From Stigmatella aurantiaca DW4/3-1 (GTDB lineage Bacteria; Myxococcota; Myxococcia; Myxococcales; Myxococcaceae), in assembly GCF_000165485.1 (NCBI RefSeq), contig NC_014623.1:6900893-6964892 (forward strand): a stretch of 64,000 nt of DNA, read 5' to 3'. The notes beneath the pieces were generated by a model. The model ran no database searches. It was not told where the DNA came from and worked only from the letters and a program-made list of their open reading frames with translations. The stretch's first letter is position 1; the number at the start of each line of letters is the position of its first letter. Below are positions 42,702 through 53,064 of this stretch, one piece after another. Both the position numbers and the translations under genes were made by a program.

Positions 42702-43024
42702 CTACAAGGCTTCCAGGCAAAAGGGCGCGCAACATAGAGGGGGGTCCCCCAAAAGTCAACGCGCCGTCGTTTCCACTCCCTCCTCTCTAACGCCGGAAGC
42801 GGCCCTCTTCTGGCGGAGGTCTCCTCCCGAAAGAGGGCGCCTCCCGGCAAGCAACCCCCAGGGCCTCTCCCTCCACCCCCGGCATGCCGGGTTCCACGAG
42901 GCGCCTTCTGGAGGGCGCGCTCCCCCGGGAGCGCGTTTCACATCACTGTCACAATGGGATCTGCTAGTGCTCCCGCGCCGGGGCCATCCATGGCCCCCCC
43001 TCCTCTTTGCAGAGCGGAGCCCCT
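42702..43024. other. Intergenic region between the DUF177 gene and the pho cluster
   Basis: Divergent promoter region of 323 bases. It contains a 14-bp perfect palindrome CCCGGCATGCCGGG (42878-42891), an inverted repeat CGCGCTCCC/GGGAGCGCG (42916-42935), and an abutting Pho-box-like repeat (42935-42952). No gene is evident. Confidence 0.6.
42935..42952 (+). promoter_or_regulatory. Pho box upstream of the first PhoB-like gene
   Basis: GTTTCAC-atca-CTGTCAC: two 7-mers with an 11-bp period, the geometry of the E. coli Pho box (CTGTCAT repeats with 4-bp spacers). It lies 73 bases before the regulator ATG, suggesting positive autoregulation. Confidence 0.75.
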
Positions 43025-43705
43025 ATGGCGCGAATCCTGATCATCGAAGACGAGCAGGACCTCGCCGGACTCATTGAGTACAACCTGCGGGCCGCGGGGT
43101 TCGACCCCGAGGTGGCCAACAGCGGCGCGGGCGGGCTGGCCAAGGCCCGGACCCGGCTGCCGGACCTCGTTCTCTTGGATTTGATGCTTCCGGACATCTC
43201 GGGCCACGAGGTGCTCCGGATGTTGAAGAACGACCCCGGGCTGAGAGCGGCGCCGGTGGTCATCGTCAGCGCCAAGGGCCAGGAGGCCGACCGCATCCAG
43301 GGCTTGGAGATGGGGGCGGACGACTATGTGGTGAAGCCCTTCTCCGTCCGGGAGCTGATGCTCCGGGTCAAGGCGGTGCTGCGCCGGGCGGACGCGGATG
43401 AAGGGCCCTCCACCCAGCTCACCGCGGGAGAGATCCAGCTGGACACCTCGCGGCACCAGGTGCGTGTCAAGGGCGAAGAAGTCGTCCTGACCGCGCTGGA
43501 ATTCCGCCTGCTGCACACCCTGCTGGAGCGCGGGGGCCGGGTGCAGACGCGCGAGGTCCTCCTCTCGGATGTCTGGGGCATCCAGGCGGAGATTCACACC
43601 CGCACCGTGGACACGCACATCAAGCGCCTGCGCGAGAAGCTGGGGCCCGCGGGGGACATCATCGAGACGGTCCGCGGCGTGGGCTACAAGCTCAACCCTC
43701 CATGA
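43025..43705 (+). CDS. phoB: PhoB-like response regulator (first)
   Basis: 226 residues from ATG 43025 with GGAG upstream. A receiver domain (ILIIEDEQDLAGL; phospho-Asp in LVLLDLMLPDISG; Lys in YVVKPFSVREL) is fused to a winged-helix DNA-binding domain (LTALEFRLLHTLLERGGRV, RTVDTHIKRLREKLG). It is followed 10 bases later by a PhoR-like kinase, its likely partner, and is preceded by a Pho box. It is similar in layout to a second regulator at 46167. Confidence 0.92.
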   Translation: MARILIIEDEQDLAGLIEYNLRAAGFDPEVANSGAGGLAKARTRLPDLVLLDLMLPDISGHEVLRMLKNDPGLRAAPVVIVSAKGQEADRIQGLEMGADDYVVKPFSVRELMLRVKAVLRRADADEGPSTQLTAGEIQLDTSRHQVRVKGEEVVLTALEFRLLHTLLERGGRVQTREVLLSDVWGIQAEIHTRTVDTHIKRLREKLGPAGDIIETVRGVGYKLNPP

Positions 43706-45086: not shown

Positions 45087-46085
45087 ATGCGGGTCGCGAT
45101 CCTCGCGGACATTCACGGCAACCTCCCCGCCTGCGAGGCCGTCCTCGAGGACATCGACAGGATGGCGCCCGACTATGTCGTGGCCGCGGGCGACCTCGCG
45201 TTGCGCGGCGCCCACCCTCGCGAGACGGTGGAACTGCTGCTCGACCGCTGCGACTCCGTCTTGATGGGCAACACCGACTGCTACCTCGCGGGCAACTACC
45301 TGGGCGGCGCCTACCGGGAGCGGGACCACTGGAAGACGGAGCTGCTGCGCTGGACCCGGGACCAGCTGGGCGAAGCCCACCTCAAGACGCTGGGTGCCCT
45401 GCCCTTCTCCATGCGCTACACGCCGCGCAAGGGGCAGGACCTCTTCATCTGCCACGCCAACCCGAAGAACCTCGAGGAGTCGCTGGATCCCACCCTCGAT
45501 GAGATGTCGATCCGCCGCTTTTTCATGCACCTGGACGCGGCCGCCTGCGCCTTTGGCCACCTGCACTTCCCCTACCGCCGCCGGGTAGGCCGCATGCTCA
45601 TCGCGGACGTGGCCAGCGCGGGCATCCCCCGGGACGGAGACCTGCGCCCCGCCTACGGCATCTTCACCTACACGCCGAAGGGCTGGCGCGTGCAGATCCG
45701 CCGGGTGCGCTATCCCGTGCGCAAAGCCACCCAGGCCCTCACCGCGCGCCGGGTCCCGGGCGGCCCCATCCTCATCCACAAGTTGGTGGAGGCGCGCTAC
45801 CGCCACCACCACTCCTTGCTCGAGGCGGCGCGCCGTCATTCCGGCCTGCCCCCACCGGGCCCCGTGCTGCGTCCGCCCCCTGGAGCGCCGCCCCGCCGCC
45901 TGCCGGCGCCTGGGGTGCCCCCTCCAGGAGACCTGGAAACGGAGCTGCCCGTGCCCCGTCAAGACGAGCTGGAGGCCGTGGCCCTGCGCATGGAAGCGCT
46001 GGGCTCCGTCGAGCTCCCTCCCGCCCAAGAGATGTCGGCAGAGGAGTCCTCCCTGTCCACTGGCACGACAGATCTCGACGGCTGA
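45087..46085 (+). CDS. Calcineurin-like metallophosphoesterase
   Basis: 332 residues. The metallophosphoesterase signature is complete: D-x-H in ILADIHGNLPA, GD in VAAGDLALRG, GNTD in LMGNTDCYL, His in FICHANPKN, and GHLH in AFGHLHFPYRR. A Pro-rich C-terminal tail (~residues 245-332) is unusual. No signal peptide, so cytosolic; the substrate is unknown. It lies 12 bases after phoR, inside the pho cluster, suggesting phosphate scavenging or signalling. Confidence 0.9.
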   Translation: MRVAILADIHGNLPACEAVLEDIDRMAPDYVVAAGDLALRGAHPRETVELLLDRCDSVLMGNTDCYLAGNYLGGAYRERDHWKTELLRWTRDQLGEAHLKTLGALPFSMRYTPRKGQDLFICHANPKNLEESLDPTLDEMSIRRFFMHLDAAACAFGHLHFPYRRRVGRMLIADVASAGIPRDGDLRPAYGIFTYTPKGWRVQIRRVRYPVRKATQALTARRVPGGPILIHKLVEARYRHHHSLLEAARRHSGLPPPGPVLRPPPGAPPRRLPAPGVPPPGDLETELPVPRQDELEAVALRMEALGSVELPPAQEMSAEESSLSTGTTDLDG

Positions 46086-46129: not shown

Positions 46130-46166
46130 GCAAGCGCAAGCAGAGACGTGGAGATTGGGGCGTGCC

Positions 46167-46856
46167 ATGTCCCATGTCCTCATCGTCGACGACGAGCGTG
46201 ACCTCGCCGAGCTCATCGACTTCAATCTCCAGGCGGCCGGATTCTCCACCCGCGTCGCGGCCACGGGCGAGGCCGCCCTCACCGCCGCCAGCGAGCACCC
46301 CCCCCATCTCGTCCTGCTCGACCTGATGCTGCCCGATATCTCCGGGACGGAGGTGTGCCGGCAGCTGCGCTCGAACGCGCTCACCCGGGACGTCCTCGTC
46401 GTCATGCTCACCGCCAAGGGAGAGGAAGCCGACCGTGTGCGCGGCTTCGAGGTGGGGGCGGATGACTACGTCACCAAGCCCTTCAGCGTCCGGGAGCTGG
46501 TCCTGCGCATCAAGGCCATCCTGCGCCGGGGCACACCCGCCAAGGAGGGCGCGGCCCCGCTCACGCTGGGACCGCTCACGCTCGATGTGGCCACGCACCG
46601 CTTCTACGTGGAGGGCAAGGAGGTTTTGCTCACCGCGCTCGAGTTCCGGCTCCTGGAACACATGATGACACGGCTGGGCCGCGTGCAGACCCGGGAGCAG
46701 CTGCTCGAGGAAGTCTGGGGGCTCTCCAGCAACCTCGAGACGCGCACCATCGACACGCACGTGATGCGGCTGCGCGACAAGCTCGGTCCTGCACGGGCAC
46801 ACCTGGAGACCGTGCGAGGCGTGGGCTATCGCATCGTCGGCCCTTCGCTGTCCTGA
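46167..46856 (+). CDS. PhoB-like response regulator (second)
   Basis: 229 residues from ATG 46167. Receiver (VLIVDDERDLAEL; phospho-Asp in LVLLDLMLPDISG; YVTKPFSVREL) and winged helix (LTALEFRLLEHMMTRLGRVQ, RTIDTHVMRLRDKLG). Close paralogue of the 43025 regulator in layout. No kinase gene accompanies it; it may share the one PhoR. It sits directly before pstS, separated by a Pho box. Confidence 0.9.
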   Translation: MSHVLIVDDERDLAELIDFNLQAAGFSTRVAATGEAALTAASEHPPHLVLLDLMLPDISGTEVCRQLRSNALTRDVLVVMLTAKGEEADRVRGFEVGADDYVTKPFSVRELVLRIKAILRRGTPAKEGAAPLTLGPLTLDVATHRFYVEGKEVLLTALEFRLLEHMMTRLGRVQTREQLLEEVWGLSSNLETRTIDTHVMRLRDKLGPARAHLETVRGVGYRIVGPSLS

Positions 46857-46857
46857 G

Positions 46858-46875
46858 CCGTCACCCATTTGTCAC
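46858..46875 (+). promoter_or_regulatory. Pho box upstream of pstS
   Basis: CCGTCAC-ccat-TTGTCAC: two 7-mers with an 11-bp period, 82 bases before the pstS ATG. The best-placed Pho box in the window. Confidence 0.8.
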
Positions 46876-47781: not shown

Positions 47782-47799
47782 CCGTCACACGATTGTCAC
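47782..47799 (+). promoter_or_regulatory. Pho box between pstS and pstC
   Basis: CCGTCAC-acga-TTGTCAC with an 11-bp period, just after the pstS stop and 36 bases before the pstC ATG. It suggests a second, internal PhoB-dependent promoter for pstCAB-phoU. Confidence 0.7.
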
Positions 47800-50537: not shown

Positions 50538-51227
50538 ATGCCGGCGACCCATACCGACAAGGCGTTTGAGCAGGATCTGCGTGACTTGCGTGAGCGGCTG
50601 CTGGCCATGGGCGCCAAGGTGGAGGCGCTCATCGCCGGCAGCGTGCGCGCGCTCACCGAGCGGGATTCCACGCTCGCCGAGAAAGTCATCCAGTCGGACA
50701 AGGACGTGAACCGCCTGGAGGTGGAGATCGACGATCTCTGCCGCCGCATCCTCGCCTTGCGCCAGCCCGCGGCCAGCGATCTGCGGTTGATCACCACGGC
50801 CCTGAAGATCGTCACCGACCTGGAGCGCATCGGTGACTTGGCGGTGAACATCGCCGAGCGCGCCCACGACCTCAACCAGGTGCCGCCCCTGGCCCCCTAC
50901 GTGGACACGCCGAAGCTGGCGGAGCTGGCCCAGCAGCAGGTGAAGAAGGCGCTGGATGCCTTCGTCTCCGACGATGTGGCGAAGGCCGAGGAAGTGCTGA
51001 AGGGCGACGACCTGCTGGATGCCCTCTTCTTGAAGATCTTCAACGAGCTGCTCGCCTACATGATGGAGGACTCGAAGAACATCCGGCGGGCCACCGCGTT
51101 GATGTTCATCGCCAAGCACCTGGAGCGCATCGGCGACCACGCGCTGAACGTGGCGGAGATGGTCGTCTACATGGTGCGGGGCAAGGACATCCGCCACCCA
51201 CTGAGCCGAAACCTGACCATGGAGTAA
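50538..51227 (+). CDS. phoU: Phosphate transport regulator PhoU
   Basis: 229 residues: two three-helix bundles with the repeated metal-binding motif (LITTALKIVTDLERIGDLAVNI; MFIAKHLERIGDHALNVAEM, quoted as parts). It damps PhoR and Pst when phosphate is sufficient. It follows pstB by 15 bases, the standard order. Confidence 0.97.
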   Translation: MPATHTDKAFEQDLRDLRERLLAMGAKVEALIAGSVRALTERDSTLAEKVIQSDKDVNRLEVEIDDLCRRILALRQPAASDLRLITTALKIVTDLERIGDLAVNIAERAHDLNQVPPLAPYVDTPKLAELAQQQVKKALDAFVSDDVAKAEEVLKGDDLLDALFLKIFNELLAYMMEDSKNIRRATALMFIAKHLERIGDHALNVAEMVVYMVRGKDIRHPLSRNLTME

Positions 51228-51237
51228 GGGACGCGGC

Positions 51238-51255
51238 GCGTCACCCCGCCGTCAC
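51238..51255 (+). promoter_or_regulatory. Pho box upstream of the glycosyltransferase gene
   Basis: GCGTCAC-cccg-CCGTCAC: two 7-mers with an 11-bp period, 11 bases after the phoU stop and 85 bases before the glycosyltransferase ATG. It is in the same position relative to its gene as the pstS box, so it probably makes that gene PhoB-responsive. Confidence 0.7.
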
Positions 51256-51322
51256 CCCGTTTTTCCGTGGCCGCCGTCAGCAGGTCGCGGGGCTGTCGCT
51301 GGGCTCTTCTAGCGTTTCGCGC

Positions 51323-52534
51323 ATGCCCGTTGCCGCCCTGCTGCTGTTCTCCGCCGCCTTTCTGGGACTTCTCGCCCTGGCCGTGCAGCTCGCCCTCGTC
51401 CTGCGCCACCGGCCCCGCTCCGGCCAGTCCCACCCCAAGCCCGAGACGTCCCCTGGCATCTCCATCCTCAAGCCCCTGTGCGGCGTGGATGACGATCTGG
51501 AGGCCAACCTGGAGCAGTTCGCCACGCTGGACTACCCCCGCTATGAGGTCATCCTGGGGGTGAAGGACATGAGGGACCCGGCCTACGCCCTGGCCCGGAT
51601 GGCCGTTGCCCGCTGGCCCCACGTCATGAAGCTGGCGCTGCAAGAGGGCGAGCCAGGACTCAACCCGAAGGTGAACCAGCTCGTCACGCTCTCGGCAGAG
51701 GCGCGGTACGGCCTTTGGGTCATCAGCGACTCGAACGTGCGTGTGGCCCCAGGCTACCTGCGGGAGATCGCCGAGGGGTTCGAGGATCCCGAAGTGGGCT
51801 GTGTCACGCACCCCATCGCCGGCATCGGCGAGAGGACGGTGGGCTCCCTGATGGACAACCTGCACCTGGCCTCCAGCGCCGCGGCGGGGGTGATCGCCGC
51901 CAAGCGCCTGGTGGACAAGGACATCGTGGTGGGCAAGTCCATGGCCATGCGGCGAGAGGACGTGGAGGCGCTGGGGGGCTTCTTTTCCGTCAAGGACGTG
52001 CTCGCGGAGGACTTCGTCATTGGCCAGTGGATCACCCACAAGCTGGGCAAGCGCGTGGTGATTGCCCGGACGCCAGTCTTCAACGTCTCCCTGAACAAGC
52101 GCGTGGGAGACTTCTTCAAGCGCTATGTGCGCTGGAGCGTCATCCACCACATGTCGGTGTCCACGCCCACCTATATGGCCCAGGCCCTGCTCAACCCGGC
52201 GCCCCTGGCCTTGCTTGCCGCGCTGTTGGCGCCCTCCTGGGAGTCCTTCGCGGCAGCGGGGACCGTAGCGCTCGTGAAGGCACTGCTGGACCTCACGGTG
52301 TTCCGAGCCCTGCGCCCGGAGCCCGTCTCCTGGAGCGCGGTGCCCGTGGTTCTCCTCAAGGACGCACTGCTCTTCGTGGCCTGGTGCAACGGCCTGTTCA
52401 GCCGGACGGTCCAGTGGCGCGGCACGCGGCTTCGGGTTCTCGCGGGTACACGACTGGCAGCGTCCACAGCCCCCAGCACCCCACCCCTCTCCACGAGCGA
52501 CGTGGCGGGACACGAGGAGCTGCTCGCGGGCTGA
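51323..52534 (+). CDS. Ceramide-glucosyltransferase-like glycosyltransferase (GT21)
   Basis: 403 residues. An N-terminal membrane anchor is followed by a GT-A domain with the GT21 pattern: SILKPLCGVDDDLEANLEQF (D1), WVISDSNVRVAPGYL (D2), VLAEDFVIGQW (D3) and R-x2-R-W in FKRYVRWSVI; then C-terminal membrane helices. GT21 enzymes transfer sugars from UDP-sugars to ceramide or, in HpnI, to hopanoid precursors. Myxobacteria make ceramides, and the Pho box and phoU neighbour point to a phosphate-sparing glycolipid. The substrate is inference. Confidence 0.8.
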   Translation: MPVAALLLFSAAFLGLLALAVQLALVLRHRPRSGQSHPKPETSPGISILKPLCGVDDDLEANLEQFATLDYPRYEVILGVKDMRDPAYALARMAVARWPHVMKLALQEGEPGLNPKVNQLVTLSAEARYGLWVISDSNVRVAPGYLREIAEGFEDPEVGCVTHPIAGIGERTVGSLMDNLHLASSAAAGVIAAKRLVDKDIVVGKSMAMRREDVEALGGFFSVKDVLAEDFVIGQWITHKLGKRVVIARTPVFNVSLNKRVGDFFKRYVRWSVIHHMSVSTPTYMAQALLNPAPLALLAALLAPSWESFAAAGTVALVKALLDLTVFRALRPEPVSWSAVPVVLLKDALLFVAWCNGLFSRTVQWRGTRLRVLAGTRLAASTAPSTPPLSTSDVAGHEELLAG

Positions 52535-52689: not shown

Positions 52690-53064
52690 TTGAGTCGACC
52701 GATGGCGGACGATGCACGCAAGGTCCTGGTCGTGGACGACGACGCGGACTGGCGAGAGTTCCTCAAGCTCTGCCTCGAAGAGCTTGGTTACGAGACCATT
52801 GAAGCCGCCGATGGGCCCGAGGCCCTGGCCTCCCTCTCTCGTGAGCGGTGCGGCGTCATGCTCCTGGACCTGAACATGCCGGGAATGAGCGGGCTGGAGG
52901 TCGTCGAGCGGATGCCTCGAAACGCCTCGCCCCGCATCGTCTTCCTGACCTCTGCGGCGGCCCAAGACGTGGGCAGCGCGCTGCTGTCCGGGCCGCATTA
53001 CTACCTCCCCAAGGGAGCCAGCCGGGACGAGCTGTCACTCCTGCTCCAATCTCTGGACGCCTGA
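52690..53064 (+). CDS. Stand-alone receiver-domain protein
   Basis: 124 residues; single REC domain (VLVVDDDADWREFLKLCLEE; phospho-Asp in VMLLDLNMPGMSG; Thr/Ser in VFLTSAAA; Lys in YLPKGA). TTG 52690 has GGGGAGG directly upstream at good spacing; ATG 52702 is the alternative but is far from it. No partner kinase is adjacent. The longer upstream frame is a shadow of the glycosyltransferase. Confidence 0.85.
   Translation: MSRPMADDARKVLVVDDDADWREFLKLCLEELGYETIEAADGPEALASLSRERCGVMLLDLNMPGMSGLEVVERMPRNASPRIVFLTSAAAQDVGSALLSGPHYYLPKGASRDELSLLLQSLDA

Follow-up and report, generated by a model that had tools for sequence, protein, structure and literature searches.

The phoU–glycosyltransferase locus

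The window, by which we mean the whole 64-kb stretch of DNA analysed here, contains a pho cluster in which phoU is followed by the gene for a GT21-type membrane glycosyltransferase (GT). A predicted PhoB box lies in the gap between the two, 10 bp past the phoU stop codon (51227) and 67 bp ahead of the ATG of the GT gene (Table 1). The gene, its box, their conservation, the linkage to pho genes and the catalytic motifs are all read directly from sequence. Reference boxes of the same kind precede phoB1, pstS and pstC; that of pstC coincides in part with the opening codons of the longest reading frame for pstC, yet it stands 17–18 bp ahead of the conserved ATG.

Table 1. Features of the pho cluster and of the GT gene, in window coordinates.
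Feature	Position	Strand	Details
Reference Pho box before phoB1, GTTTCACATCACTGTCAC	42935..42952	+	pattern search
Reference Pho box before pstS, CCGTCACCCATTTGTCAC	46858..46875	+	pattern search
Reference Pho box before pstC, CCGTCACACGATTGTCAC	47782..47799	+	pattern search, matrix
phoU	50538..51227	+	TIGR02135, 232.6 bits; adjoins the GT gene in loci L009-L043
Strong PhoB box (predicted)	51238..51255	+	units GCGTCAC and CCGTCAC, spacer CCCG, 11 bp apart
Weak second repeat pair, AGGTCGC-GGGG-CTGTCGC	51282..51299	+	exactly 44 bp (4 x 11) past the first pair
Probable -10 element, TAGCGT	51310..51315	+	10 bp past the weak repeat pair
GT21-type membrane glycosyltransferase, 403 aa	51323..52534	+	D85, D136, D230, R267-x-x-R270-W271

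Several other genes of the cluster deserve mention. The cluster has two PhoB-type regulator genes, at 43007-43705 and 46155-46856, and upstream of the second the nearest match is a poorer box. A YfcE-type metallophosphoesterase gene (45087-46085, + strand), kept in the pho clusters of several relatives, is situated between phoR and the second phoB. On the 3' side of the GT gene is a single-domain response regulator (52702-53064, + strand), whose position is conserved in Myxococcaceae.

A predicted Pho box conserved across myxobacteria

A Pho box is defined as two 7-bp direct repeats (PMC4415409), and the phoU–GT gap contains two such repeats 11 bp apart, like the pst boxes of the same genome. 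This confirms the sequence-only reading, which had claimed a GCGTCAC-N4-CCGTCAC repeat that shares its 11-bp period with the boxes before pstS, pstC and phoB1. GCGTCAC-CCCG-CCGTCAC is also the sole zero-mismatch match to SYGTCAY-N4-SYGTCAY in the window. When two mismatches were allowed, the same pattern was found 21 times against 19.7 expected, which is no excess over shuffled sequence, and it was dropped as evidence. Since the loose pattern is uninformative, we used an independent matrix, trained on 18 distinct pstS, pstC, phoB1 and phoB2 boxes from 16 genomes, with the site at 51238-51255 excluded. Of the 127,966 18-mers that the two strands of the window contain, this matrix places the site fourth, and the three ranked above it have scores equal to those of training sites at other promoters. 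The best matrix match lies on the same strand and inside the phoU–GT gap in all 35 relatives in which phoU adjoins the GT gene. Across 17 non-redundant relatives, mean information is 1.77 bits per column in the two TCAC cores, 0.69 in the spacer and 0.79 in the flanks, a distribution that would be typical of a footprint.

Application of a different strict pattern to the whole 10.26-Mb genome produced 12 matches, two of them in the pho cluster, against eight in a reversed control, and with several of these matches intragenic the pattern was rejected as a means of finding the regulon. A Pho-box-like repeat was observed beside a gene that looks like a glycerophosphodiester phosphodiesterase (L176, G000:C1:4016085), a plausible second member of the regulon.

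The strong box is followed by further repeats in phase with it. When the matrix was slid downstream, offsets 44, 33 and 22 were the best three of 44, all of them multiples of 11, and the mean score at phase 0 (mod 11) was -9.4, compared to -21.0 (sd 2.7) in column shuffles, with none of 2,000 shuffles reaching the observed value. The weak pair at offset 44 has no clear match in Corallococcus. Nearly all of the 35 relatives have a TAG-type element 72 bp from the start of their box; in L041, where the box has three repeats, the distance is 39 bp, which once more leaves about 10 bp between the last pair and the element. No sigma-70 consensus promoter was found before the GT gene. In Streptomyces, Pho operators of a complex build, in which the repeat unit occurs several times, have been described, as have GTTCACC-type units (PMC4415409). 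The arrangement here is probably an extended PhoB-binding array that ends at the -10 element.

Linkage to pho genes and probable phosphate control

A scan of the genome collection defined the enzyme clade as 61 loci at 44.5% identity or above, and 19 more distant loci served as comparison. Genes of the pho or pst systems occur within about 5 kb in approximately 40 of the 61 clade loci, one of these linkages depending on a weak ABC-ATPase match, compared to none of the 19 more distant homologues. In 28 of the 61, phoU is immediately upstream of the GT gene; elsewhere the GT gene follows phoB (L140, L144), precedes phoB (L141) or is placed further down the pst–phoU cluster (L129, L132-L134, L136). 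Because the linkage recurs in differing orders, function is favoured over inherited order as its explanation. The earlier claim that the gene follows phoU and is wired into the pho cluster has therefore withstood the neighbourhood comparison, in its frequency of linkage as in the presence of a box in every phoU-linked relative compared.

Two observations from this survey stand apart. In Anaeromyxobacter-like genomes and in G006, a protein weakly resembling diglucosyl-diacylglycerol synthase is encoded beside or near the GT gene (L049:1266-2558, - strand; L050, L052, L056 and L057). Locus L113 comes from a record titled Comamonas sp. KCTC 72670, but its placement within Myxococcus makes a wrong label on that record probable.

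Given the rank of the box, its conservation in the 35 relatives, the phased repeats and the linkage to pho and pst genes, PhoB control of the GT gene is very likely, and sequence comparison across myxobacteria thus lends support to the PhoB-type operator that the sequence-only reading had placed before a GT21 gene. Alternatively, the repeats could be fortuitous, and the gene either lack phosphate control or be expressed only by read-through from the pst–phoU operon. This idea draws on the loose patterns that match as often in shuffled sequence and on the phoU–GT interval, in which no terminator was found, but we consider it very improbable; chance is contradicted by the rank under an independent matrix, the footprint in 35 relatives, the phased repeats and the TAG-type element at a fixed distance, and read-through would itself still confer phosphate control because the pst genes carry boxes.

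The glycosyltransferase

The product of the GT gene scored 148 bits against the Pfam model Glyco_transf_21 (PF13506; cut-off 21.7). No variation occurs at D85, D136, D230 or R270 in 61 homologues, and the window protein contains R267-x-x-R270-W271, so that the GT21 motifs previously claimed (D1, D2, D3 and R-x2-R-W) are indeed present. When the sequences of solved structures were searched, the only relatives were entries for ceramide glucosyltransferase (UGCG; PDB 26qf and others), with E 2e-30 over 349 residues and the same catalytic motifs; we take these entries to be human, having read their source species from their sequence. UGCG is a eukaryotic enzyme; the acceptor of the bacterial protein is a prediction. 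An AlphaFold2 model of the GT (mean pLDDT 94) matched membrane GT2 synthases, including PcManGT and hyaluronan synthase, with Z of about 22, the match covering the catalytic domain as well as the membrane helices. The UGCG structures, although matched by sequence, were absent from the structure-search matches (structure library to April 2026).

Together these comparisons suggest that the protein is probably an inner-membrane glycosyltransferase of GT21 type, with a predicted role in transfer to lipid. A fold broadly like that of the GT2 membrane synthases would also suit an enzyme acting on some other carrier, such as polyprenyl phosphate, with a glycan or lipid-linked sugar as its product and not a bulk membrane lipid; this is improbable, however, as ceramide glucosyltransferase alone among solved structures is matched by sequence and the GT21 Pfam model is the best.

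The proposed acceptor lipid

In our preferred interpretation, to which we assign a probability of roughly 0.6, the GT glycosylates diacylglycerol as its main acceptor under PhoB control. From the sequence evidence we infer its induction, acceptor, sugar and membrane role as follows. When phosphate is scarce, phosphorylated PhoB would switch on the GT gene from the gene's own promoter, binding to the strong repeat pair and probably also to the weaker 11-bp-phased repeats towards the -10 element. The GT would then use a nucleotide sugar, probably a UDP sugar, as donor and a neutral lipid with two chains as acceptor, for which diacylglycerol or an ether analogue of it is the likeliest candidate. 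The phosphorus-free glycolipid so formed would take the place of phospholipid and spare phosphate. Diacylglycerol is a universal lipid. It is favoured here because the enzyme clade occurs in genomes without ceramide genes and because the GT gene mostly has a phosphodiesterase-type partner.

The partner gene encodes a calcineurin-type phosphoesterase and is located no more than 600 bp from the GT gene in 39 of the 61 clade loci. Its product is CpdA/Rv0805-like by sequence, and phospholipase activity would be a guess. A similar pair of phosphoesterase and glycosyltransferase genes is found on a Gemmobacter plasmid, and marine bacteria possess plcP–glycosyltransferase operons, one such transferase making glycosyl-diacylglycerols (PMC4796936). 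The myxobacterial clade likewise has a phosphoesterase beside a glycosyltransferase, with Pho boxes, as in the PlcP–Agt system (PMC4796936). It differs in that the partner is missing from the genome under study, as it is from three of the four other genomes of the genus that were tested and from some members of genus g6, the genus to which Myxococcus belongs; furthermore, a PlcP search with an alphaproteobacterial PlcP-like query, run with no positive control and therefore uninformative, returned no match in 117 myxobacterial genomes. The missing partner, along with the presence of ceramide genes in the same genome, counts against diacylglycerol.

In the enzyme tree, the clade of the window protein is separate from both HpnI and the Pgt-like sequences, and it is not monophyletic with the sampled Pgt-like sequences, a further point against diacylglycerol. 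Pgt is itself a member of GT21, and the Agrobacterium enzyme is the nearest precedent for the GT. In Agrobacterium tumefaciens and Mesorhizobium loti, Pgt is a lipid glycosyltransferase of phosphate deprivation with a predicted Pho box (PMC3972451), and a Pho box is likewise predicted ahead of the GT gene. The Agrobacterium enzyme is processive and is reported to prefer diacylglycerol over ceramide (PMC3972451). The tree covered plasmid-borne Pgt-like sequences rather than characterised Pgt, and these form their own distant clade (support 100/100), at about 28–30% identity to the window protein.

The sequence-only reading had proposed ceramide as a substrate. In the same genome, genes for an SPT-like protein, a GNAT-type ceramide-synthase-like protein and an epimerase-type reductase are side by side (G000:C1, 5.177-5.181 Mb), which we take to be a ceramide-synthesis cluster from family matches and from what is known of the Caulobacter genes. 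The organism probably makes ceramide, although the SPT-like protein, at 515 bits, stays below the cut-off of its model (640). A PhoB-controlled enzyme with ceramide as its main acceptor, producing glycosphingolipids in phosphate limitation, would accord with this cluster, with the ceramide glucosyltransferase, presumably human, that is the nearest enzyme of solved structure, and with the ability of Pgt to take ceramide in heterologous tests (PMC3972451). Nevertheless, five genomes that are 95–100% complete (G008, G026, G029, G035 and G050) carry the enzyme while lacking both SPT and ceramide synthase, other genomes have ceramide synthase without the enzyme, and a long distance separates the ceramide and pho clusters in the genome under study. 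Barring an unrelated route to ceramide, the five genomes imply that the clade is independent of it. We regard ceramide as a less likely main acceptor than diacylglycerol. The parallel with Caulobacter is one of function: its ceramide glycosyltransferases Sgt1 and Sgt2 also represent PhoB-regulated lipid glycosylation in phosphate starvation, but they come from GT4 candidates and not from GT21 (PMC6445935).

It is unlikely, although conceivable, that a separate, PhoB-controlled GT21 branch glycosylates both diacylglycerol and ceramide in phosphate-starved myxobacteria; if so, a single enzyme would supply starved social bacteria with both glycerolipids and glycosphingolipids, free of phosphorus, for the rebuilding of their membranes. 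Systems of the general kind favoured here, with diacylglycerol as main acceptor, are already known, while the enzyme branch, the lineage and the tie to pst–phoU appear to be undescribed in the part of the literature that was searched. In the literature examined, phosphate-driven membrane remodelling is reported mainly from alphaproteobacteria and marine bacteria. Should the diacylglycerol interpretation be correct, remodelling would extend to myxobacteria, which are predatory, multicellular and live in soil, and candidates for its enzyme, operator and partner gene would be at hand.

Hopanoids as an improbable substrate

Hopanoids had been named as another possible substrate, and a role for the GT as HpnI or some other triterpenoid glycosyltransferase has some initial appeal, in that the HpnI model TIGR03472 is its top NCBIfam match and a squalene-cyclase-type gene adjoins a squalene-synthase-type gene in the genome. 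HpnI, too, has the GT21 domain. Yet the match scores 252 bits, below the cut-off of 310, compared to 452 and 471 for two annotated HpnI proteins, and HpnI sequences form a separate, well-supported clade in the tree. HpnI works on bacteriohopanetetrol, downstream of HpnH (PMC12583986), and of 117 genomes from the order 15 have an HpnH that reaches the cut-off, none of them in the family, the genome under study included. The only squalene-cyclase homologue of that genome reaches 272 bits against a cut-off of 431, many genomes have the GT gene with no cyclase match, and G063 has a separate HpnI-like gene inside a hopanoid cluster. With HpnH missing, the cyclase score weak and the tree position apart, the hopanoid substrate was rejected, such a function being extremely improbable; an HpnI label for the GT is likely to be an annotation error. 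Several relatives have a distant GT21-like paralogue, at about 29% identity, with a squalene-cyclase-type gene no more than a few kb away (G046:C7:158918-160078, G028:C2:228346-229500 and G051:C6:619183-620325).
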